Virus record (IMG/VR): IMGVR_UViG_3300047469_000074
Span: 1-53,543 of that record
Strand: one strand, 5' to 3'
Source of the DNA: a virus
DNA: 53,543 nucleotides
The position numbers were made by a program, and so were the translations under genes. Below are positions 11,381 to 22,797 of the stretch, piece after piece. Within the stretch, counting starts at the first letter, position 1; every line of letters begins with the position of its first letter. The notes under the pieces are model-generated. The model made no database searches. It was given only the letters and a program-made list of their open reading frames with translations, and had not been told where the DNA came from.

Positions 11381-12280
11381 TTAGAAGAGTCCAATCTGGT
11401 CCGGCACAAAGACCGGGGGTTTGTTTTCGATCTCTTTGTTCAGGCGGGTGAACGCGTGGCAGTTATAGGCCCAGCGCGCGACGTACTCGGTTTGCAGCCG
11501 GTGCACGTCAAAGCCTTCTTCTTCGATCATGTCACACACAGCCTTACGCTGCACTGGCGTGATTGTGTCGATGTGCATGTTGAGTTGTTTGCGGGCCGGG
11601 CTGTTGACCGACACGGCAAGCGCTCGGTTGCCCGGAAGCAGGATGGTTCCGTTACCTGCCATCTGCACCCACGACGACGAGTCGACCGAGTACCACGGAT
11701 AGCGCACCATAAGCGAGAGTGTGGTCAAGCCAAACCCGTGCACTTTGATCTTCGCCGTACCGTCCGGGTTGCAGAGGTGCTTCTCCCAGATGCGATCAAG
11801 CCATAGCTTCAACTGGTCGGTCGAAACCATCACCATACCACCGAGCGTCATGTGGTCGTAGTTCTGCACGTACCAATCAAGGTAGCGCTCGTCTTCGCCA
11901 TAGTGGAAGCAGGGCAAAGCGTTCGCCCCGAGCTGCTCCATTACGCGCTGGTTCTGCCACGTCTTGAGCGGGTCGCCAATGCCATCCAGGACCGAAGCCA
12001 CTTCGATGATATCGGCGTTGCGCTTGATGTAGTCGCAGTAACCCGGCAAGTCGATCTCTGCGCCTTTGGTGAATGCGGAGAAGGCGCCCGAGTCAAGGAA
12101 CACCCGGGCGCCATCCTCGCGGATCTTATCGACAAAACTCTGCTTGTGGATGTAGTGGTACGAGTCCAGCAAGTAGCGCACGTCGTCACGAGCCTTCTGT
12201 TCGCGTGGGCTGCACTTCATGTAAGCCGTAGAGCCCTTGCGCAGATTGTTCGTGTACAGGGCCGCGAGGTAGAGCTTCAT
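11381..12280 (-). CDS. dpdA: DpdA-type 7-deazaguanine DNA transglycosylase
   Basis: 299 aa, related to tRNA-guanine transglycosylases but in the short phage form. Conserved features are FLDSGAFSAF (Asp63), VHGFGLTTLSLM (residues 180-191) and YSVDSSSW (Asp200), with two Asp residues placed like the TGT catalytic pair. In the family this enzyme exchanges guanine in DNA for a 7-deazaguanine base, shielding phage DNA from restriction. Its start overlaps the folE stop (ATGA), and queD, queC and queE lie upstream in the same transcript. The substrate here is inferred to be preQ0. Confidence 0.88.
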   Translation of the reverse strand: MKLYLAALYTNNLRKGSTAYMKCSPREQKARDDVRYLLDSYHYIHKQSFVDKIREDGARVFLDSGAFSAFTKGAEIDLPGYCDYIKRNADIIEVASVLDGIGDPLKTWQNQRVMEQLGANALPCFHYGEDERYLDWYVQNYDHMTLGGMVMVSTDQLKLWLDRIWEKHLCNPDGTAKIKVHGFGLTTLSLMVRYPWYSVDSSSWVQMAGNGTILLPGNRALAVSVNSPARKQLNMHIDTITPVQRKAVCDMIEEEGFDVHRLQTEYVARWAYNCHAFTRLNKEIENKPPVFVPDQIGLF

Positions 12281-12894
12281 TTCTGTACGAACGACATGAA
12301 CTCGGCACGCGGGGCCGCATCCTTCATCACGCCCCTCAGCGCGGAGCTAGTGGTCTTGGTGCCAGCCTTGCACACGCCGCGCGACTCCATGCACATGTGC
12401 CGAGCCTTCACAACCACCCCCACGCCTTTCGGGTTCAGGTGGTGCATGATTGCGTCAGCAACTTGCACAGTGATGCGCTCTTGCACTTGCAGGCGCTTGG
12501 CGAAGCAGTCTACCAGCCGGGCGAACTTGGACAGGCCGACGATCTTGCCGTCCGGGATGTAGCCCACCCACGCTTCGCCGAAGAATGGTGTCATGTGGTG
12601 TTCGCAATGGCTGTAGAACGGGATCGGTCCAACCAGAACCATTTCGTCCACGCCGTCCGCGCCGTCTTCAAACGTCTTGAGGATCTGCGCCGGGTCTTGC
12701 TCGTAGCCCTTGGCCCACTCGCCCCAAGCTTTGACCACACGGTGCGGGGTCTCCGCCAGCCCGGAACGCATGGAGTCCGGGTCGATATAGTCCAAGAGCA
12801 CGCGCACGGCTTCGACTGCCCGCATGGGGCTGACCTTCAATGCGCGGTTCTCGCCAACGCGAGCAAGTGTTTGGATGTCTTCTGCGAGCTTCAT
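12277..12894 (-). CDS. folE: GTP cyclohydrolase I
   Basis: 205 aa from the ATG at 12894. It has the full catalytic and zinc set: HCEHHMTPF with Cys97, His99 and His100, then ARHMCMESRGV with Cys168. It converts GTP to 7,8-dihydroneopterin triphosphate, the first step toward preQ0 (and folate). Start chosen because the longer ORF to 12978 lies inside queD and the ATG at 12894 lies two bases past the queD stop. The dpdA gene follows with ATGA overlap. Confidence 0.95.
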   Translation of the reverse strand: MKLAEDIQTLARVGENRALKVSPMRAVEAVRVLLDYIDPDSMRSGLAETPHRVVKAWGEWAKGYEQDPAQILKTFEDGADGVDEMVLVGPIPFYSHCEHHMTPFFGEAWVGYIPDGKIVGLSKFARLVDCFAKRLQVQERITVQVADAIMHHLNPKGVGVVVKARHMCMESRGVCKAGTKTTSSALRGVMKDAAPRAEFMSFVQK

Positions 12895-12896
12895 GG

Positions 12897-13379
12897 TTAG
12901 CGGATGTGATTGGGTTGCGGGAATTCGACGATAGCGGAGTTTGCGCCATGCTCGCGTACCTCGACGCGCGACAGCCAAACGCGGTCGCTATGGCCTTTCA
13001 GCTTCAGCCAGTAGCCGACGTTCCGTGCAATACGTTCGGCGAAGGCTTCGCACCCAACGCCCTCCTCCATCACAACAAGCTGGACAAGCCCGAGGCTGTG
13101 GAGATATCGCATCATTTCCAATTGCGGGTCGTCCCCAGCCACTGCGAGCCTGTGGTCAAACGAGCCGCGCAGAAAGTCTTTGACCTCGCCGAACGAGCCA
13201 AAGTCGATAACCCAGTTACGCGAGTCGAGTTGTAGCGCACTGAACTCGAGAGATACGGCCAGAGCATAGCCATGGATGAATTGGCAATGCGAGCCTGACC
13301 GCCACTGGCGGAAAGCGCACGACAACCCGAAGTCGTGGCCGAACGTCTTAGTCGATTTGTAGATCACGTGGAACCTCAT
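12897..13379 (-). CDS. queD: QueD-like 6-carboxytetrahydropterin synthase
   Basis: 160 aa from ATG 13379 (13385 is an alternative two codons upstream). Motifs are FGHDFGLSCAF (His14, Cys20), SHCQFIHGYAL (His31, Cys32, His36), VIDFG and FDHRLAV. The enzyme makes 6-carboxytetrahydropterin from dihydroneopterin triphosphate. Classic QueD has HGH for the last two zinc ligands; here it is HGY, so the site is altered or uses another ligand. The gene overlaps the end of the DUF2591-like gene by ~32 bases. Confidence 0.82.
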   Translation of the reverse strand: MRFHVIYKSTKTFGHDFGLSCAFRQWRSGSHCQFIHGYALAVSLEFSALQLDSRNWVIDFGSFGEVKDFLRGSFDHRLAVAGDDPQLEMMRYLHSLGLVQLVVMEEGVGCEAFAERIARNVGYWLKLKGHSDRVWLSRVEVREHGANSAIVEFPQPNHIR

Positions 13380-13731
13380 CCCCATATTGCCAGAGCAGGA
13401 AGCAACGCGCCAATGCCATTGACGAACTAGCTTCGTGCTCTGCGCAGTAGATATGAACAAACCCATCATCGCGCTTCACATGGAAGCTCACACGGGCCAT
13501 TGCCCCAGTGTGGTCGATGAAGATCTTGCCTTCGCGCGCCATGCGAAGTAGAACCCGGGCTGTTTGCCGCCAGCGAGTAGACGGGCTGTAAATCTGCTTC
13601 GCCTTGTCTTGCTGCCAGCAAACGAGATGCTCGCCTTGGTTCGACTTACCGATCCGGACCGGCTGCATGAGCACTTGCCCGATCCAGTAGTCCAGCTCGT
13701 AAGCCTTCAGCGCCTTGACTTCACGCGTCAC
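13348..13731 (-). CDS. DUF2591-like phage protein
   Basis: 127 aa from a GTG at 13731 that overlaps the queC stop (GTGA); the longer ORF to 13788 sits inside queC. The start KALKAYELDYWIGQV and the middle YSPSTRW followed by ARVSFHVKRDDGF match the short phage family DUF2591, whose function is unknown. Its position inside the deazaguanine gene run may be a chance insertion or mean a role in that pathway. Confidence 0.75.
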   Translation of the reverse strand: MTREVKALKAYELDYWIGQVLMQPVRIGKSNQGEHLVCWQQDKAKQIYSPSTRWRQTARVLLRMAREGKIFIDHTGAMARVSFHVKRDDGFVHIYCAEHEASSSMALARCFLLWQYGDEVPRDLQID

Positions 13732-14417
13732 GCGAGGTGCTCGATGTATTCGTTCCAGCCTTTCTCGCGCAGCTTGCAGGCCGGGCATTCGCCGCAGCCA
13801 AACCCCCAGTCGTGACGCTCACTGCGGTCGCCTTCGTAGCACGTATGCGAGTGGTCAAGCACAACGCCGAGCACGTCCGCGTCTGCCGCGAGCTTGAACG
13901 TTGCGGCTTTGTTGATAAACATGAGGGGTGTGACAATTTCGATGTTGCTCTCGTAGCCCGCGTTCAGCGTGCGCTCGAGCTGGCGAATGAACACGTCGCG
14001 GCAGTCCGGATAACCGGAGTAGTCCGTCTGGCAAACCCCCGTGTAGATCTGTTGGGCACCAAGCTCTTGCGCTGCGGCGTGCGAGATGGTGAGCATCAGG
14101 GCGTTGCGCGCAGGCACGAACGACGCGGGCAGGCTCTTCAGCCGGCTGTGTTGTTCGCTGACACGGTCAACCGTATTGGTGAGCGCGCTCGTGACCATCT
14201 TGGGCAGGAACGGCAGGTCGACCGTGTAGAAGTCGACGCCGAGCTTTCCGGCAATCACTTCCGCTTGGCGCAGCTCCACCGCGTGACGCTGCCCGTAGTT
14301 GAACCCGATGGCTTGCACGCGGTCTGCGCCGAACACCTTGATCGCGAGGCCGAGGCAGGTAGTGCTATCTTGCCCGCCGCTGAACACTACTACGGCATCT
14401 TTCTTACTGTCGAGCAT
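13728..14417 (-). CDS. queC: QueC, 7-cyano-7-deazaguanine synthase
   Basis: 229 aa from the ATG at 14417 with GGAG seven bases upstream. The PP-loop ATP pyrophosphatase signature is FSGGQDSTT (residues 12-20). The C-terminal zinc site is the CGECPAC cluster with a nearby upstream Cys (HTCYEGDRSERHDWGFGC). It converts 7-carboxy-7-deazaguanine to preQ0 using ATP and ammonia. It follows queE by four bases, the usual pathway order. Confidence 0.95.
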   Translation of the reverse strand: MLDSKKDAVVVFSGGQDSTTCLGLAIKVFGADRVQAIGFNYGQRHAVELRQAEVIAGKLGVDFYTVDLPFLPKMVTSALTNTVDRVSEQHSRLKSLPASFVPARNALMLTISHAAAQELGAQQIYTGVCQTDYSGYPDCRDVFIRQLERTLNAGYESNIEIVTPLMFINKAATFKLAADADVLGVVLDHSHTCYEGDRSERHDWGFGCGECPACKLREKGWNEYIEHLA

Positions 14418-14421
14418 GACG

Positions 14422-15114
14422 TTACTCCATGTTGATGAGCTTGTGGACTTGAAGCCCAAAGGTGTAGCCGTGGCGCATGGCTACGTGAATAGTGGCGTTC
14501 TGGTTGAACGTGTTGATCAGGGGGTCTTTGTCGTCCTGCGGGTTGACGTAGACCATACCCGTGAACTCTGCGTGCGGGCGGGCGGGGCGGACCCCATCCA
14601 ACGCACGTGTGGGCAACCCGTCTTCTTTATCGACGTGTTGATGATTGATGACGTACTTGTACGCGGTGATGTATTTGTACAGGCCCGGGTTGACGCGGCC
14701 TGCCTTGGGGCTGCACACGATGTCCACCAACGCATAGGGGAAGTCTTCCGGTGCCCGCGTGCCATTGGTTTCGATCTGGATGTCATACCCGCTGTCGTGC
14801 AAGCGTTGAACAAGCTGGGACAGGTTCTGCCTGAACGGCTCGCCGCCCGTGAGCACTACCATCGCTTTTGACGGGTGTGCCATGCGCCGTACCACCTCAA
14901 CGACGTCCTGGACAGGCAGCACGTCGCGACCCTGCGTGTACTCGGTGTCGCAAGCTGGGCATTGCAGGTTGCATCCAGCGAGGCGGATAAACACTGCGGG
15001 CCGGCCAACGTGCGGGCCTTCCCCCTGAATGGTGTGAAAGATGGAGTGGATGTCGAGGGCCGAGCCGTTCCCGATAGACGGGCGTTCAATAGGCTGGATA
15101 TTGATTACTTTCAT
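14422..15114 (-). CDS. queE: QueE, 7-carboxy-7-deazaguanine synthase (radical SAM)
   Basis: 230 aa from the ATG at 15114; the longer ORF would start inside the promoter. The radical-SAM cluster is CNLQCPAC (Cys48, Cys52, Cys55), the CxxxCxxC arrangement, with TGGEPF following (SAM-binding GGE). It converts 6-carboxytetrahydropterin to the 7-deazapurine. First gene of the operon, with a TATAAT -10 about 26 bases upstream. Confidence 0.94.
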   Translation of the reverse strand: MKVINIQPIERPSIGNGSALDIHSIFHTIQGEGPHVGRPAVFIRLAGCNLQCPACDTEYTQGRDVLPVQDVVEVVRRMAHPSKAMVVLTGGEPFRQNLSQLVQRLHDSGYDIQIETNGTRAPEDFPYALVDIVCSPKAGRVNPGLYKYITAYKYVINHQHVDKEDGLPTRALDGVRPARPHAEFTGMVYVNPQDDKDPLINTFNQNATIHVAMRHGYTFGLQVHKLINME

Positions 15115-15862: not shown

Positions 15863-16363
15863 TTACTTGGCCGGGGCAGCAGGCACAACAGCCGCCTTGC
15901 TGGCCTTGGCGGCAGCAGCCGCTGCGTCCTTGGCCTTCTTGTCTTCAGCAGCCTTGGCCTTCTTCTCGGCGTCAGCCTTGGCTTTGGCGTCAGCCTTGGC
16001 CTTCTTTTCTGCATCAGCCTTGGCCTTGGCTTCGTCCTTTTCCTTCTGCTTCGCTTCCTTGGCGGCAGCTTGCACTGCGGCCGAGGTATTCTTCAGGCCG
16101 TAATACTTGCACCAGCGACCGTACTGCGTGGTGATCGTTGCCGGGTTCACGCCTTCCTTCTGGCCCTCGGCGAGCACTTCGCCCCGGGTTGCCGGGCGGC
16201 CGAACTTCTTCGACAGAGCGTCGGCGATCACCCACACCTTACCGGTGGCGCCGGTGGCTTCCTTCGGGCGGGTCACGCCATTGCGTTCATCCTTGGCAAC
16301 CGGGGCCGGTGCCGTCGGTGCGGTGGTCGTTGCGGGGGCTTGCGTGTTGGTTGCGTCCGTCAT
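15863..16363 (-). CDS. Lys/Ala-rich protein with a shared HTH-like domain
   Basis: 166 aa. Residues ~38-95 form a compact domain (VWVIADALSKKFGRPATRGE, then a TTQYGRWCKYYGL end), shared with the next two genes upstream in the same order. The rest (from ~95) is an Ala-Lys tail with a 14-residue unit repeated (AKAKADAEKKAKAD), like histone-H1-type DNA-binding tails. Together these suggest a nucleic-acid-binding protein. Its own promoter candidate lies at 16435-16463, and the structured RNA begins 2-3 bases after its stop, so the two are probably co-transcribed. Confidence 0.8.
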   Translation of the reverse strand: MTDATNTQAPATTTAPTAPAPVAKDERNGVTRPKEATGATGKVWVIADALSKKFGRPATRGEVLAEGQKEGVNPATITTQYGRWCKYYGLKNTSAAVQAAAKEAKQKEKDEAKAKADAEKKAKADAKAKADAEKKAKAAEDKKAKDAAAAAAKASKAAVVPAAPAK

Positions 16364-16434
16364 CTTCTTCTCCAGTGGTAGTGTTGGCCCGTGGTGGCGG
16401 GCGCAGAAAAATTCGGTAAATCGGGAGTAGCTGA

Positions 16435-16463
16435 ATGGTAATGTCCAGCCACTCCGCCGTCAA
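16435..16463 (-). promoter_or_regulatory. Promoter for the 16363 gene and structured RNA
   Basis: On the minus strand TTGACG (16458-16463) and TACCAT (16435-16440) are exactly 17 bases apart, just after the stop of the 16471-17181 gene and ~70 bases before the ATG. This would give the Lys/Ala-rich protein and the RNA their own transcription start. Confidence 0.6.
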
Positions 16464-16470
16464 AGAGTTT

Positions 16471-17181
16471 TTAGATCCCTTGGGCCGACTTCCACTTGCC
16501 ATACTGCGTCGCCGCAGTCGAGTCGTTGATCCCTTCGGCTTCGCACTGTTTCATCACCACGACCCGGAAGTCTTTCAGGTTCAGGCCATCGAGCTTGGTG
16601 TGCCCAGCTTTGGTCATGGCCTCGTCGCAGATCTCCCAGACCCTTGCGGTGGTGCTGCCGGGCTTGGGCCGGGTTGCCGGGCTTGGGGTGCCCCGGTGGG
16701 CCGGTGTGGGCAATGCGCGGCCCCCTGCCCCGTTTGTGCCCGGGGTGGGTGCTGGGGGTACTAGGTGCCCAGCCTCGGCCAGCATAGCCCGCCATTCTGG
16801 GTCCGTAGGGCCGTTTTCAGGCGGCAGGGGCGCAGGGCGGTCCGGGTGCGTTGGGTACAGACCCTGCATCGCATGCTTGTGGGCGGCTTCGAGGGTGGCT
16901 ACAGGCGTCTCGTCGACCTGCAACTCCAATGACCTGTAGTAGCAGGCCCGCAGCATTTCGCCGTAGGGGCGCAGGCCCAAGTCTTCGCCGAACGTGTTCT
17001 TATACAGGCGCATCAAACTCAGCTCGGTGAGGCACGAAAAGGCCCGCACGCACAGGTCGCTAACATGGGTCGACTTCATTGCAAAGTCAGTGTCAGCCCA
17101 CAGGGTCGCGGCCCGGTAGTCATTCGTCCTCTTTACAATCTTGGGGGTCTCGAGATCAATCACAACATAGGTTTCGGGCAT
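16471..17181 (-). CDS. Hypothetical protein with C-terminal shared domain, 236 aa
   Basis: The N-terminal half (ETYVVIDLETPKIVKRTNDY) begins like a small alpha/beta domain. A Pro/Gly-rich linker runs from residue ~120 to ~180. The last ~55 residues (ARVWEICDEAMTKAGHTKLD to STAATQYGKWKSAQGI) repeat the domain found in the proteins at 15863 and 17405. GGAG precedes the ATG at 17181. Function unknown; the conserved TQY-W motif suggests a DNA-binding or oligomerisation module. Confidence 0.78.
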   Translation of the reverse strand: MPETYVVIDLETPKIVKRTNDYRAATLWADTDFAMKSTHVSDLCVRAFSCLTELSLMRLYKNTFGEDLGLRPYGEMLRACYYRSLELQVDETPVATLEAAHKHAMQGLYPTHPDRPAPLPPENGPTDPEWRAMLAEAGHLVPPAPTPGTNGAGGRALPTPAHRGTPSPATRPKPGSTTARVWEICDEAMTKAGHTKLDGLNLKDFRVVVMKQCEAEGINDSTAATQYGKWKSAQGI

Positions 17182-17193
17182 GGTAGCTCCAGT

Positions 17194-17343
17194 TTATCTA
17201 AACAGCGAGTTAATAAGTTTGCTCGCCAACTTGTAACCAGCCTTTCGACCGATCCTCTTACCGATGGCAACGGGGCCTCGGCTTATTGCGTTCGCGTCAC
17301 CGAGCAGAGACGCGAGGCGGTACAGCAACGATCGAAAGGTCAC
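17194..17343 (-). CDS. Small basic phage protein, 49 aa, GTG start
   Basis: The ORF starts at GTG 17343 behind a GGGGGA ribosome site, with an in-frame stop just upstream. The sequence (MTFRSLLYRLASLLGDANAI, then VAIGKRIGRKAGYKLASKLI and ending FR) is very basic and typical of a small protein type seen in many proteobacterial phages (a LLGD segment followed by an Arg/Lys/Gly helix). It lies between two larger genes in the same operon and had no larger competing frame. No function known. Confidence 0.72.
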   Translation of the reverse strand: MTFRSLLYRLASLLGDANAISRGPVAIGKRIGRKAGYKLASKLINSLFR

Positions 17344-17404
17344 AGCGGTCCCCCGGGACGTTTAACCAGTGGCGCCCCGAACTGGCGGCGCCTTACATAT
17401 AAGC

Positions 17405-18238
17405 TTAGGCTTTCTGGCCTTGCTTTGCAGCTCGTTCTTCCATTTCCTTTTGCGTGGTACGCCACAGTTGATATTGCGTGCGAGCCGTGTAGTAGGCGAT
17501 GCCTTGGCGATCGCATTCAGCCAGCACGTCGCCACGCTTGGGCAGGGCGCCGCCGTTGGCCTTCTTGAACTGGTCAGCGATTTCCCACACTGCTGCGCAC
17601 GGGTTTTCGATCGAGCTGGCGCGGCGGTGGCCGATGTCGAAGGTCCAGTCGCAGCGGTGGCATCCGCCCGTGGTGTCTTCGTTCGCGACCGTGCCGTTCA
17701 CGCCGACGCCGTGGAAGATTTCTTCGCAACCGCACTGCGGGCAAACCTTGCAGTTCAGTGGGTTGGTCTCGGCTGCTGCCTTCAGGCGGGCTGCTTCTTG
17801 CTCGTCGGTCAGGCCGTTGATCAGCTGCGCCTTGGCTTCGGCTGCGTCAGCCACGAGCAGCTCGTTGGCTTGCACGTCGGCCAGCGCTTGAACCTTGGCG
17901 CTGCACTGGCCCAGCAGGGTCAGCATCACGCCTTCGGTGATTTCGTTTGCCTTGAACAGATCACCAACGGCGCGCTCGCAAACTTGGATGCTTTGCATCG
18001 ACTCTGCCTTGGCGATCATGTCTTGCAGCACGCGGATCGCAGCTTCGTCTGCTTGGCGCTTGCTTTGCACCGGGGCCGACTCCATTACGTCTTCAACGGC
18101 GGCGAGGTCAACGTATGCGTATTGGCCGTCGCGCTCAACCAGCGTAGCCAGCTTTTCGAAGTCGTCGCCGAAGGCTTGCTTGGCGGCACGCTTGGCGTTG
18201 CTCTTGCTGCTGTAGAACTTGGTGTTGGTGGCTTGCAT
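17405..18238 (-). CDS. Hypothetical protein with zinc ribbon and C-terminal shared domain, 277 aa
   Basis: The N-terminal ~150 residues are helical and Ala/Gln-rich with coiled-coil character. A zinc-ribbon-like part has CPQCGCEE followed by CHRCDW. The final ~60 residues (AAVWEIADQFKKANGGALPK to YTARTQYQLWRTTQKEMEER) form the domain shared with the genes at 15863 and 16471. A promoter candidate lies upstream at 18306-18334. A DNA-associated role is likely but not shown. Confidence 0.78.
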   Translation of the reverse strand: MQATNTKFYSSKSNAKRAAKQAFGDDFEKLATLVERDGQYAYVDLAAVEDVMESAPVQSKRQADEAAIRVLQDMIAKAESMQSIQVCERAVGDLFKANEITEGVMLTLLGQCSAKVQALADVQANELLVADAAEAKAQLINGLTDEQEAARLKAAAETNPLNCKVCPQCGCEEIFHGVGVNGTVANEDTTGGCHRCDWTFDIGHRRASSIENPCAAVWEIADQFKKANGGALPKRGDVLAECDRQGIAYYTARTQYQLWRTTQKEMEERAAKQGQKA

Positions 18239-18382: not shown

Positions 18383-18646
18383 TTAGAAGGGGATGTCCGG
18401 CACGTGGCGGTCGCAACCTACTACGATCACCTTGGCGGGCGGGCGCTGGCCCCACAGCGTGCACACCTCGTTCGGGTGTAGCTGGGGGTTTGGTTTCATC
18501 TTCAATGCGTGGTTGGCGTTCTCGCCCCACAGCTCGCAGTTGACGCAGCTAGGTAGCACGCCGCGCTCTACTAATAGCTTGTGCGTCGTGTAGATGGCGA
18601 CTTCGCCGGGGCTACGCCGCAGCTCGAGAGGGTTCTGGGAAGACAT
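18383..18646 (-). CDS. Cys-rich small protein with SSB-like C-terminal tip, 87 aa
   Basis: Start at ATG 18646, inside the end of the helicase gene (35-base overlap). Cys34, Cys37, Cys62 and Cys78 could bind zinc or an iron-sulphur cluster. It ends in HVPDIPF; this DIPF tip is the classic C-terminal peptide of single-stranded-DNA-binding proteins, which bacterial repair and replication proteins dock onto. No OB-fold is visible in the rest. The neighbour helicase makes a replication role plausible. Confidence 0.72.
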   Translation of the reverse strand: MSSQNPLELRRSPGEVAIYTTHKLLVERGVLPSCVNCELWGENANHALKMKPNPQLHPNEVCTLWGQRPPAKVIVVGCDRHVPDIPF

Positions 18647-20342
18647 AGCTGATGATCTCCGGGTAACGTTTGTTAACAACGACTAGGATGCGCTCTGGCG
18701 CGCGTAGGTGATCAATGGCCCCTGACTTGATGGCCTCTTCTGTCGTATTGGGTGGCGGGATGTCGCAGCGCTCGCGCCACCACTTCTCCGCCCGGTAACG
18801 AATGGCCGAGGTGTGGCTAAGGCAAACGAACTCGCGGAACACCCGCATCTTGCAGTAATAGCTGACCTCGAGCGACGTGGGTTTGCCGGGTTTGGTGTGG
18901 GCCTTGTAAGTGATCGAGTCAACCTCGAAGTATTCTTTGACGTCCTCGTCGCTGGCGATCAGCGCGTCGGTGCCGGCCTTGGTCTCGATGTTCAGGTGCA
19001 CGGGGAACTCGAAGCCACAGAACTCGCACTCGCGCACGCTTGCGTGATTGTAGATGCCACACTGGGGGCACTCGCGCACAGGCGCGGTGCCACCCTTGCC
19101 CGAACCTTTCTTCACAGGCACGACGGGATCATTGATAGGCCCGAGGCGTTTGGTGTTGCCACCGAAGTCACCAACGAGGCAGTTCTGCTTTGCGCTGGTC
19201 TCGATGGCAGCGCGCCGGCCTTCTAGCGTGTCAATGTCATAATGCCATTTGCCATCACGCTTGACCACAGGCAGCACTTCCCCCGGGCGGTGCCATGGCT
19301 TGTACAGGGTATCGAACAGAGGCCGTGTCCCCCGTCCCAAGATTTGCACCCACAGGGCTGACGACTTCGTAGCGCGGTACACGCCAAGATAATCCACCTT
19401 GGGGTCATCGAAGCCTGTGGTGAGAATACCGTTGTTGACGAGCGCACGGTACTCGCCTTGCTTAAATGCCTTGATACGGTCGTCGCGTTGCCCGCCCGGC
19501 ATCTTGCTGTGTACGACCGTTGAGTGAACGCCAAGCTCGTTCAGCAATTCGCACATCATTTCTGCGTGGTTGATGCCAGAGGCAAACATCAACCAGTGGT
19601 GGCGGTCCCCTGCGATGTTGAGCGTTTCATGTAGTGCGGACTCTGTGATCCGCATAGCTTCTATCTCAGCTTCCTTCAGGTCGTAGTCGCCGTTCTTGGT
19701 GTGCAACCCTTCAACCTTCATGACTGCGTCTGTGCGCTTGGGCAGCAGCTTCGCCAAGTAGAGCTGATCAAAAAGCCATTTGAAGCATTGACGCGTTGAC
19801 ATATCAAAGCAGACGTCAGTGAAGATGCTGCCTTCGTCCTGCGCGAGCTTGCCCTTACCCAGCCGGTAATCCGTGGCCGTGAATCCTACAACGCGCAGGC
19901 GCGGGTTTGTCTCTAGTAGCCCACTGATCAATTGCAGGTACATCGACGACTCTTTGTCGCTGACCATGTGGCACTCGTCGATCAACAGAATGTCGACGTG
20001 GCCCAGAGCAGGGATGCACTTGTACAGCGTCTGCACCGAGCCGAACGTGATCGGCCTGTTGAACTCACGCAGGTCTAACCCCGCAGCCACCACCCCCACG
20101 GGCGCCCCGGGCCAGTATGTACGCATTTTGTCTGCGTTCTGCTCTACCAGCTCTTTGACGTGTGTAGCGCACAGGATGCGGGTGGTAGCCCAGCCCATCA
20201 ACGCGCGGCGGCACAGCTCTGCAATGACTACAGACTTCCCCGTACCCGTCGGCATGACGCAGACCGGGTTCCCTGTGCTGTGCTGCGTGAAGAAATTAAA
20301 CGTGGCGTCTACTGCGCCGTGCTGATAATCCCGTGCCTTCAT
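18612..20342 (-). CDS. Superfamily 2 DNA helicase with zinc-ribbon tail
   Basis: 576 aa. Walker A MPTGTGKS (30-37), motif II DECH (122-125), motif III GFTATDYR, and motif VI QILGRGTRP mark a two-RecA-domain SF2 helicase of the RecG/UvrB/DEAD-related type. A CPQC...CEFCGF ribbon lies near residue 430. It should unwind duplex or branched DNA in replication or recombination. The start overlaps the nuclease stop (ATGA). Confidence 0.93.
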   Translation of the reverse strand: MKARDYQHGAVDATFNFFTQHSTGNPVCVMPTGTGKSVVIAELCRRALMGWATTRILCATHVKELVEQNADKMRTYWPGAPVGVVAAGLDLREFNRPITFGSVQTLYKCIPALGHVDILLIDECHMVSDKESSMYLQLISGLLETNPRLRVVGFTATDYRLGKGKLAQDEGSIFTDVCFDMSTRQCFKWLFDQLYLAKLLPKRTDAVMKVEGLHTKNGDYDLKEAEIEAMRITESALHETLNIAGDRHHWLMFASGINHAEMMCELLNELGVHSTVVHSKMPGGQRDDRIKAFKQGEYRALVNNGILTTGFDDPKVDYLGVYRATKSSALWVQILGRGTRPLFDTLYKPWHRPGEVLPVVKRDGKWHYDIDTLEGRRAAIETSAKQNCLVGDFGGNTKRLGPINDPVVPVKKGSGKGGTAPVRECPQCGIYNHASVRECEFCGFEFPVHLNIETKAGTDALIASDEDVKEYFEVDSITYKAHTKPGKPTSLEVSYYCKMRVFREFVCLSHTSAIRYRAEKWWRERCDIPPPNTTEEAIKSGAIDHLRAPERILVVVNKRYPEIISYVFPEPSRAAA

Positions 20343-21250
20343 TGTTGTTTGATTTCGATGATTGGGTCCCAGTCGTCACAGGCGGCTTTCTGCTCTTCAT
20401 AGTCCAGGAAGTTGCCGTGCAGCCCGCACACCCACTGCTTATCGTCTTTCACCAGAACGTTGACGCACGAACGACACGACTTGAATACAGGAGCCCGCCC
20501 GTGGCACACCCCATGCTGGTGACAGATCTTGCAACGGAACCACGCGGCGTTCGTGCTGATACGCACTGGCGGGATCTTGGCGTCGATGATGCGGGGCTGG
20601 CGCTCCATCAAGAACGCATAGCGGTTTGGGTCGAACGTAACCAGTTCGCACCATAGCTCGTCAGTGTTCTTGTCTACAGCGAGGTACAGGGCGGTTTTGA
20701 ACGCATACTCGCCCATGTACATATAGAGCTGGTCTACGTGTTCGGGGTTGCTTTTGTGCACGCCGTCCTTCTTGACCAGCGCGAAGCTCTTCGACGAATG
20801 CGTTTTGAATTCGGCAGGCATAGCCACCGAGGGAGCGTCCGGGAGGCCCTTGATGACGCAGTCCAGCGAGCCGCCAGCATGGCCCCTGTAACCCTTAATA
20901 CGGAACTGTTTGCCATTCTGGTCACGCTCCCATACTTGACACCCGATAAGACGCAGCAGCGTTATCAGGCGCAACTCTTCAAGGTGCCCCCGGTTGAACA
21001 GGCGAACCAGTTGACCGGAGGCATTCTCTTTACTGCACCAGCGAAACGTCATCCACATCTCACGCTCGCAGTGACCACTGAGCGTTGCCGCGCCAAGGTG
21101 GCGGCGATAGCCGTCGTCTTCTTTGAAGGCGCCCCCGGTGCCTTGCTGTGCGGCCTCGAGAACTACCTCGCGGAAGATGCGGCGGTACGCGTTGCCTTGG
21201 TCGCTTTCAAGCGCCCAGTTGATCGCGTCGAGCGTGAGTTGTGCTTTCAT
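20339..21250 (-). CDS. Cas4/RecB-like PD-(D/E)XK exonuclease
   Basis: 303 aa. The nuclease core has GHCERE (Cys61), GGSLDCVI (Asp130), PAEFKTHS (Glu147, Lys149) and a following HVDQLYMYM. The C-terminal half carries several Cys (CKICHQHGVC, KSCRSC, VCGLHG) that with Cys61 could hold an iron-sulphur cluster, as in Cas4 and AddB-type nucleases. It would resect DNA ends for recombination. Overlaps both neighbours as ATGA. Confidence 0.88.
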   Translation of the reverse strand: MKAQLTLDAINWALESDQGNAYRRIFREVVLEAAQQGTGGAFKEDDGYRRHLGAATLSGHCEREMWMTFRWCSKENASGQLVRLFNRGHLEELRLITLLRLIGCQVWERDQNGKQFRIKGYRGHAGGSLDCVIKGLPDAPSVAMPAEFKTHSSKSFALVKKDGVHKSNPEHVDQLYMYMGEYAFKTALYLAVDKNTDELWCELVTFDPNRYAFLMERQPRIIDAKIPPVRISTNAAWFRCKICHQHGVCHGRAPVFKSCRSCVNVLVKDDKQWVCGLHGNFLDYEEQKAACDDWDPIIEIKQQ

Positions 21251-21534
21251 TGCGATTGCGGGATGCTGTACTTCGGTTGCACAAGCTCAACAACCGCCTT
21301 CGGGTCGCCGGTGACGGTCGTGTTATTAACCACACGTGCCCGGGTGCGTGCCGGCTTGTTCAGCAGCTCTGCGACACGGGCCAGAGCGGTTTCCGGCATC
21401 TCACCTTCCACCAGATTGAACGTGTGGTGCCCGACGACCATCTGCATCACCAGCTTGCCCGCTGCCGGGTCGAAGAACACCGCGACAACGTGGTCCGGGT
21501 TCACGAAGACATGCTTACGTACTTCAACGATCAT
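21247..21534 (-). CDS. Hypothetical beta-rich protein, 95 aa
   Basis: Start at ATG 21534 (MIVEVRKHVFVNPDHVVAVF); upstream in-frame codons to 21672 lie inside the transporter gene. Contains a strand-turn-strand start and a helix (PETALARVAELLNK). No family recognised. Overlaps the nuclease gene as ATGA and the transporter gene by 11 bases. Confidence 0.75.
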   Translation of the reverse strand: MIVEVRKHVFVNPDHVVAVFFDPAAGKLVMQMVVGHHTFNLVEGEMPETALARVAELLNKPARTRARVVNNTTVTGDPKAVVELVQPKYSIPQSQ

Positions 21535-22060
21535 TGCTGGCCTCCATGGTGTGATAGACAGAGTACAGAAGTAGGCTCGCTGCGAACTTGGAAAGCGACA
21601 TCGCGAGGATACCGCCCCAGCTTGCCATGCCAATCCCCCACAGGAAGCAGAGGCTGTCCAGCGGCACCGCAATCGCCGAACTGATCAACACCCTGTGCTG
21701 GAATGGCTTCTTGGTGACCGTGTACACACCCCAGTCAGCGAGTTCACTGACGATGAAGGCGAGCCCGGAGGCGAACGCGATCATTGGGTCTGCGAGCACC
21801 ACGGACAGGCCGAGGCCCAGCCACATGACGATCAGCACATTGTGCCCTGCGTAGCGTTGGGCGTAGTCGCGCAGAATGAACACGAGCCCAACGAAGAACG
21901 CCATGAGGGGCACAGGGCCGAGCAGCGTGTGGATAACAGGCAGGTATGCGAACCCTACGTTGACTGCAACGATCATGAGCAGGTACGCAAAGCTGAACCC
22001 CCACGCCAGCCGACGTTGCTTCACGTGCGACGTGTACTCTGCTTGGAGATCGGCTAGCAT
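21524..22060 (-). CDS. yhhQ: YhhQ/VUT-type queuosine-precursor transporter
   Basis: 178 aa from the ATG at 22060, with about five or six membrane segments. Family hallmarks are LRDYAQRYAG, then the ASGLAFIVSELADWGVYT stretch and SSAIAVPLDSLCFL, as in the VUT/DUF165 family. E. coli YhhQ takes up preQ0 and preQ1, so this phage copy should bring preQ0 (or a related base) into the cell. It is not beside the que genes but in the same leftward transcription direction. Confidence 0.85.
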   Translation of the reverse strand: MLADLQAEYTSHVKQRRLAWGFSFAYLLMIVAVNVGFAYLPVIHTLLGPVPLMAFFVGLVFILRDYAQRYAGHNVLIVMWLGLGLSVVLADPMIAFASGLAFIVSELADWGVYTVTKKPFQHRVLISSAIAVPLDSLCFLWGIGMASWGGILAMSLSKFAASLLLYSVYHTMEASNDR

Positions 22061-22797
22061 GGGCCAACCCCCAGCAGCGCGCGGATGTCGTCGGTCGGGG
22101 GTTTGTAGTTCGGCCCCTTCATGATCTTGCCGTCTTCGCGTTTGACGGGGTTGCCGTCTGTGCCGAGCTTGCTCATGTTGCTGCACTGGATGGCTTCAAT
22201 GATCTGGCAGTGGGGGAAGCCGAACACCAGCGCTGCGCCTGCTGCAAGGTAGTCGATGTCGCCGATCGCGTCAGCCATCTCGACCATGTCCGGTTCGCCC
22301 GGGTAGGCTTCGACCCTGAAGCCGTGCACCCAGACCTTCTTTTCCATGTTGAAGCGAACCTCCAGCTCGCAGCGCACACGAGCCGCCTCGGCCAGCTCCA
22401 GCACTTCTTCGAGCAACATGCGCACACGCAGAGCCCGCAGTTCCGGCGTAGCAACGTTTGGCACGGATGCGATCGGGTGCTCGAATTTCTCGTGGAAATC
22501 TTGAACGTGGCCGATCGTCGGCATGTAGAGCACCGAGCCTTTATAGTCGGCCGACTCCACAACGCGCCCACGTACAGGCGCTTGCGTCTGTTGGATGGTT
22601 GGCATGGGCTTCAGCGGCCCCGCTGCGTGCGCAGCGTCTTGTTGCTCGCCCGGCAACACTGTAGCGTCGATGATCTGGTGGTGAAGCATCTTCATCCAGA
22701 GCTCTTTTGCGTGCTCTGCGGTGATGAACGGTAACGCCTTCTCGATGAAGAAGGAATTGATCTCTTTGGCAAGAGCTTCGTAAACGGATGGGGTCAT
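22054..22797 (-). CDS. MazG-like NTP pyrophosphohydrolase (PRA-PH type)
   Basis: 247 aa. The C-terminal two-thirds holds the all-alpha pyrophosphatase pattern: FHEKFEHPIASVPNV, LLEEVLELAEAARV and MVEMADAIGDIDYLAAGAAL, with the Glu-rich helix and ExxD metal site. Then SNMSKLGTDGNPVKREDGKI, typical of phage phosphoribosyl-ATP pyrophosphatase-like proteins. Such enzymes hydrolyse nucleotide triphosphates and may tune nucleotide pools. The N-terminal ~90 residues are extra. GAGG precedes the ATG at 22797. Confidence 0.85.
   Translation of the reverse strand: MTPSVYEALAKEINSFFIEKALPFITAEHAKELWMKMLHHQIIDATVLPGEQQDAAHAAGPLKPMPTIQQTQAPVRGRVVESADYKGSVLYMPTIGHVQDFHEKFEHPIASVPNVATPELRALRVRMLLEEVLELAEAARVRCELEVRFNMEKKVWVHGFRVEAYPGEPDMVEMADAIGDIDYLAAGAALVFGFPHCQIIEAIQCSNMSKLGTDGNPVKREDGKIMKGPNYKPPTDDIRALLGVGPC

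Follow-up and report, generated by a model that had tools for sequence, protein, structure and literature searches.

The window, by which we mean the whole 53,543-nt stretch of viral DNA analyzed here, carries a preQ0 operon that ran from dpdA to queE on the minus strand (11381-15114), with all frames open. The dpdA gene (11381-12280), encoding a DNA 7-deazaguanine insertase of the long DpdA type, matched PHROG 887, "queuine tRNA-ribosyltransferase" (E 7.9e-79), and aligned with the DpdA of phage CAjan; folE (12277-12894), for GTP cyclohydrolase I, matched PF01227 (E 2.1e-66); queD (12897-13379), a variant homologue of CPH4 synthase, matched PF01242 (E 2.3e-13); queC (13728-14417) matched PF06508 (E 1.3e-69); and queE (14422-15114) matched PHROG 2076 (E 3.9e-53). 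Between queC and queD, and overlapping both, lay a NinX-like gene (13348-13788; Pfam match below the cut-off). At E. coli positions 16, 27, 31, 33, 70, 71, and 110, the window QueD had F, C, H, Y, D, H, and E. Of these, positions 16, 31, and 33 are the zinc-ligand histidines of the E. coli enzyme, so that F and Y replace two of three zinc-binding residues, while the other four positions compared were kept. The same variant, retaining C27, H31, D70, H71, and E110, recurred in many phages, and it therefore looks like a subfamily rather than a decaying gene. Judged on its five genes (DpdA, FolE, QueD, QueE, and a QueC of 229 aa with no Gat domain, that is, no fused amidotransferase), the window falls into the dPreQ0 phage pathway, group 2 in the classification as excerpted from PMC6884629.

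The transporter ORF (21524-22060, minus strand; ATG start, 178 aa) overlapped the upstream gene for a MazG-like/PRA-PH nucleotide pyrophosphohydrolase (22054-22797, minus strand; PF01503, E 2.2e-10; PHROG 671) by 7 bp and the downstream gene by 11 bp. It shared its strand with queE-queC-queD-folE-dpdA and lay 6.4 kb from queE and 9.2 kb from dpdA. Two statements of the initial annotation held in this respect, namely that a VUT-type transporter gene lies about 6 kb from the que/dpdA operon and that a single phage carries genes for both preQ0 synthesis and such a transporter. Genes for a helicase (18612-20342) and a Cas4-type exonuclease (20339-21250), both on the minus strand, stood between the transporter and the que operon, MazG, SSB, and Sak4 genes followed on the other side, and genes for a DNA polymerase clamp and a DNA polymerase lay downstream of dpdA; in view of these surroundings, the transporter is therefore part of the DNA-replication block. 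On visual inspection, three adjoining genes at 15863-18238 seemed to have a C-terminal domain in common (the "VW.I" region), and two of them matched PHROGs 18634 and 7864, both with function unassigned in PHROGs.

Profile searches assigned the 178-aa protein to the VUT family. Vut_1 (PF02592) was the sole Pfam family found (E 2.3e-5), at 25.3 bits, below its gathering cut-off of 27.2, and the NCBIfam model for the queuosine precursor transporter, TIGR00697, gave 19.5 bits, below its equivalog cut-off of 50.95. PHROG 4899, whose function is unassigned in PHROGs, was matched over the full length (E 4.3e-35, residues 15-170), and a related phage protein (L017) scored 51.9 bits against Vut_1. BLASTP of the transporter (P0001) against E. 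coli YhhQ returned no significant match (best E 2.1), and hhalign of a 17-row transporter profile with YhhQ gave a weak match (probability 69.6, 107 columns). A single-sequence IMG/VR search with the protein recovered zero relatives, phmmer found no match among PDB chains, and megablast of the first 25 kb of the window found none in phage records. Eleven residues were invariant over 52 aligned rows (N34, G58, R64, D65, G72, F102, E106, D109, S127, D135, and F139). The scores below the Vut_1 and TIGR00697 cut-offs, the separate subfamily, and the absent BLASTP match ruled out canonical YhhQ. Of the earlier label "YhhQ/VUT-type transporter," the VUT part stands through PHROG 4899 and the canonical YhhQ part does not; on sequence grounds, the protein is a predicted transporter of the VUT family and falls in a subfamily, distinct from YhhQ, whose members are mostly from phages. 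Membership in a different VUT subfamily had been named in advance as an outcome that would speak against the preQ0 reading, and it is what we found, yet that subfamily proved to be tied to DpdA.

Six hydrophobic segments corresponded to six membrane segments, and the AlphaFold model (mean pLDDT 91.1) was mostly helical. Foldseek ranked a biotin S-component first, with an E of only 0.27, and the 11 best of the chains re-aligned with VIA-align were all ECF S-components. Their Z values ran from 9.2 (RibU) down to 6.4, with 8.8 for the cobalamin protein BtuM, against the 13 advised for helical bundles. Because helical bundles can match by chance in this Z range, an S-component fold is likely but not proven, and the modeled structure of the transporter is likely closest to the ECF vitamin S-components.

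Among 50,697 INPHARED records, 75 matched the transporter and 234 matched the window DpdA. We studied 16 of the 75, hand-picked for spread, and found DpdA in 15, the exception being an 8.8-kb fragment. Together with 130 IMG/VR loci, these 16 records gave 146 transporter-anchored loci, near-copies included, and a DpdA/TGT-type gene was present in the same locus or record in 137 of them: a DpdA/TGT-type gene within 600 bp in 112, a long DpdA within 10 kb in 17, and a gene elsewhere in the record in 8. The remaining 9, with none, were all on contigs of at most 21.2 kb. Clustering at 80% identity reduced the 146 loci to 87 clusters, distributed over the same four classes as 63, 11, 7, and 6. The mini-DpdA and T3-T5 profiles had been seeded from transporter neighbors, with the T3-T5 seeds chosen after the fact, and the linked count excluding the T3-T5 profiles was 112 of 146. 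The DpdA/TGT neighbor was on the transporter's strand in every case (112/112), whereas among the 1,331 other ORFs of 150 aa or more on the same strand in loci with a TGT-type gene, 215 lay equally close. This comparison of adjacency ruled out chance co-occurrence. In support of the initial annotation, the transporter family tracked DpdA/TGT genes across these loci.

The partners of the transporter were of several types, comprising mini-DpdA (PHROG 887), a type matching both Pfam DpdA and PHROG 1279, and groups of PHROG 15826, to which PHROGs assigns no function. Proteins of PHROG 15826 adjoined the transporter at L139:3962-4561, L088:9420-10007, L046:3237-3830, and similar places. Under VIA, the predicted structure of the L139 protein (pLDDT 81.8) aligned best with tRNA-guanine transglycosylases, over 193 residues at Z 15.2, and a profile comparison with mini-DpdA gave an E of 5.8e-5 (probability 65.7). 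Based on this model, the PHROG 15826 proteins are probably minimal DNA transglycosylases. Four loci from Rhodospirillales metagenome-assembled genomes (MAGs; L319-L322) encoded transporters of this subfamily, and the fetched DNA showed neither DpdA nor a que gene; a long-DpdA profile likewise found no match in the whole genomes of these MAGs. Therefore, the subfamily is not restricted to DNA modification. These MAG transporters are a possible cellular source of the phage-like subfamily. At a fifth MAG locus (L318), a neighbor with a DSGGF motif was read by eye as TGT-like.

The distribution of synthesis genes suggested that the two supply routes are mostly alternatives. None of the 28 records of at least 31 kb with a dpdA-transporter pair had QueC or QueD, with CAjan, the 29th record, serving as a control that scored for both; therefore, import usually replaces synthesis, and it seems that the majority of phages carrying this transporter have no synthesis enzymes and depend entirely on import. 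The reverse view came from the DpdA-anchored loci of about 31 kb or more (55 of 91, after removal of L233, which duplicates the phage in L153), whose whole records were searched. QueC was present in all 55 of these long-DpdA records and a VUT transporter in 6, two of which were the canonical YhhQ of Vid5 and PSTCR4. The other 49 gave no VUT match, and import is therefore dispensable. With both routes present, the window is in the minority. When the QueC hits were sorted by score and by the length of their open frames, presence of the transporter showed no link to the type of QueC (2 of 14 short high-scoring, 2 of 12 Gat-fused-length, and 2 of 29 other QueC). In the mini-DpdA loci, the transporter was found in 35 of 80, a share that is likely too high because transporter neighbors supplied the sequences for the mini-DpdA profile (A6), and 16 mini-DpdA records with no local transporter gave no match in a whole-record search run without a positive control of its own.

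A further arrangement, in which the transporter, a QueC of about 184 aa (a longer frame in L119), and mini-DpdA are adjacent, was found at L029:2327-4060 and in L030, L032, L033/L312, and L119; the fetched DNA around them contained neither FolE nor QueD nor QueE, and it is possible that CDG is imported there instead of preQ0. In Caulobacter phage DMCA (PQ480021.1, 21242-21919), mini-DpdA adjoined an annotated 6-carboxytetrahydropterin synthase, a partial-pathway arrangement. A broader proposal, which we hold at even odds, pairs the phage transporter with a small TGT-type enzyme in a DNA-modification module of only two genes, dependent on import, that would be widespread among phages and prophages and built around several diverged kinds of TGT, PHROG 15826 among them. 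On this view, phages with both routes joined two interchangeable supply modules, and the transporter-QueC-DpdA variant would import CDG rather than preQ0.

For the window, we favor, with a probability of roughly 70%, the reading that a stand-alone VUT-family transporter with six helices and an S-component-like fold imports a 7-deazaguanine base, most likely preQ0, into a pool shared with synthesis and drained by replication. From the genes, their subfamily, the predicted fold, and the linkage to DpdA, we infer transport, its direction, its substrate, and flux as the reason for keeping both routes. The transporter would take up the base from outside the host cell, import and synthesis would feed one preQ0 pool that replication drains, and import would top up this pool as thousands of insertions per genome deplete it. 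CAjan, which has both routes, was reported in the excerpted results of PMC6884629 to contain 70,628 dPreQ0 per million nucleotides, amounting to 32% of its G. By simple arithmetic, this density corresponds to about 8,400 bases on its 59.7-kb genome, and an assumed burst of 100 would require close to a million. Phage 7-11, with DpdA and no synthesis genes, contained fewer than 6 dPreQ0 and 50 dADG per million nucleotides according to the same excerpt, and we found neither a Vut_1 match nor, in a whole-record search, a transporter in it. Both facts fit a limited supply, although a single contrast of this kind is not proof.

The initial annotation had also suggested that import compensates for a weak biosynthetic step, the altered QueD, and the substitutions at two zinc-ligand positions, together with an odds ratio of 4 in the DpdA-anchored loci, could be read in this way. 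However, in the 75 of 80 DpdA-anchored IMG/VR loci with a scored QueD, the transporter was present in 3 of 22 variant-QueD loci and 2 of 53 others (Fisher p 0.15), meaning that no significant association was seen and that the transporter was not found in 19 of the 22 variant loci. Moreover, the 19 transporter loci with QueD, all with full synthesis, comprised 9 with the variant and 10 with canonical QueD, and the residues retained by the variant and its wide recurrence likewise argue against a defective enzyme. We accordingly abandoned this suggestion as very improbable. All 9 variant-QueD transporter loci had the layout in which the transporter is distal to the operon, and the variant looks like a lineage marker of that layout rather than a reason for import. 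The QueD of the window was distant from that of L019, to which its other pathway proteins and its transporter were closest, and QueD may have been swapped in the window lineage, the trees having been read without support values.

Retention of both routes as insurance for hosts that lack preQ0 synthesis or YhhQ, rather than for flux, is unlikely but credible. The phages that carry the transporter infect varied hosts, as such a role would predict, but a phage that encodes the whole synthesis route has no need of the host pathway in the first place, and E. coli, which the Seuratvirus members with both routes infect, has a complete pathway, as the excerpt of PMC5372724 indicates, and its own YhhQ; therefore, a backup for the host pathway is not needed in E. 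coli phages. Import of a different pathway base (CDG, ADG, preQ1, or queuine) in place of preQ0 is rather unlikely. Substrates do vary within the family, with preQ0/preQ1 for E. coli YhhQ and queuine for a Chlamydia member in the portion of PMC11130926 consulted, sequence networks suggest specificity groups (PMC5372724, in excerpt), and the five transporter-QueC-mini-DpdA contigs would fit CDG import; against this, QueC is far more often absent beside a dpdA-transporter pair than present, and in the window it is complete. Quite improbable is carriage of an unrelated purine or vitamin with an incidental linkage to dpdA: the scores below the family cut-offs and the many vitamins carried by S-component folds would allow it, but same-strand adjacency to several TGT-type families would not be expected. 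Import of preQ0 into a pool shared with synthesis remains the reading that we prefer.

Phage DNA modification with 7-deazaguanines protects from restriction enzymes, and many phages probably rely on import, with some having both routes, a pattern that shows where supply limits modification. The transporters and minimal TGT-type enzymes also provide a testable list. Considered for the window alone, the finding is ordinary, since the pairing was published in 2021. The portion of PMC8310023 available to us describes FolE, QueD, QueC, QueE, and DpdA with a preQ0 transporter in phage EC151, with relatives in Seuratvirus, and that of PMC8651126 adds YhhQ to the preQ0/G+ pathway of haloviruses HCTV-1 and HCTV-16; with the reports on EC151, CAjan/Seuratvirus, and haloviruses, the pairing of synthesis with a transporter is therefore already known. 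A putative transporter was described in Vid5 (PMC6266253, in part), and YhhQ homologues were noted in some phages, uncorrelated with phage group, in the excerpt of PMC6884629. To this, the present analysis adds how tightly the transporter is linked to TGT genes of different types, a class that seems to depend on import only, and the test of the QueD suggestion.

Compared with known systems, phages with both routes showed two layouts, with the transporter either inside the operon (Queuovirinae) or distal, upstream of queE, and in the latter case, found in 10 loci and the window, the two genes shared a strand and were 4.4-6.9 kb apart. The nearest relative of the window, L019/L160, also had the distal layout and shared 89-90% of DpdA, and the window transporter grouped with that of L019, apart from other distal transporters, in trees read without support values. 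EC151 and the Seuratvirus CAjan resemble the window in combining FolE, QueD, QueE, QueC, and DpdA with a transporter in one phage, and the CAjan transporter belongs to the same subfamily (55% identical). However, the CAjan gene is flanked by queC and queD within the que operon, alongside a canonical QueD, whereas that of the window lies 6.4 kb upstream and accompanies the variant. Rhizobium phages RHph_Y55 and RHEph04 and their IMG/VR relatives share the position of the transporter several kilobases upstream of the que genes, on the same strand and beside exonuclease/helicase genes, and an RHEph04-like record (L026) also has the variant QueD, although the transporters in this group are only 45-47% identical to that of the window. 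E. coli YhhQ/QPTR (COG1738) shares with the window protein the weak profile similarity over 107 columns and six membrane segments, but it differs in length (221 versus 178 aa) and in the absence of a significant BLASTP match, the window protein also scoring below the TIGR00697 cut-off. Pantoea phage Vid5 and Providencia phage PSTCR4 (L155/L157), like the window, combine a DNA-modification cluster with a VUT transporter, but theirs is of the canonical YhhQ type, above the Vut_1 cut-off, and lies beside queE with a Gat-QueC, apparently reflecting an acquisition separate from that of the window type.
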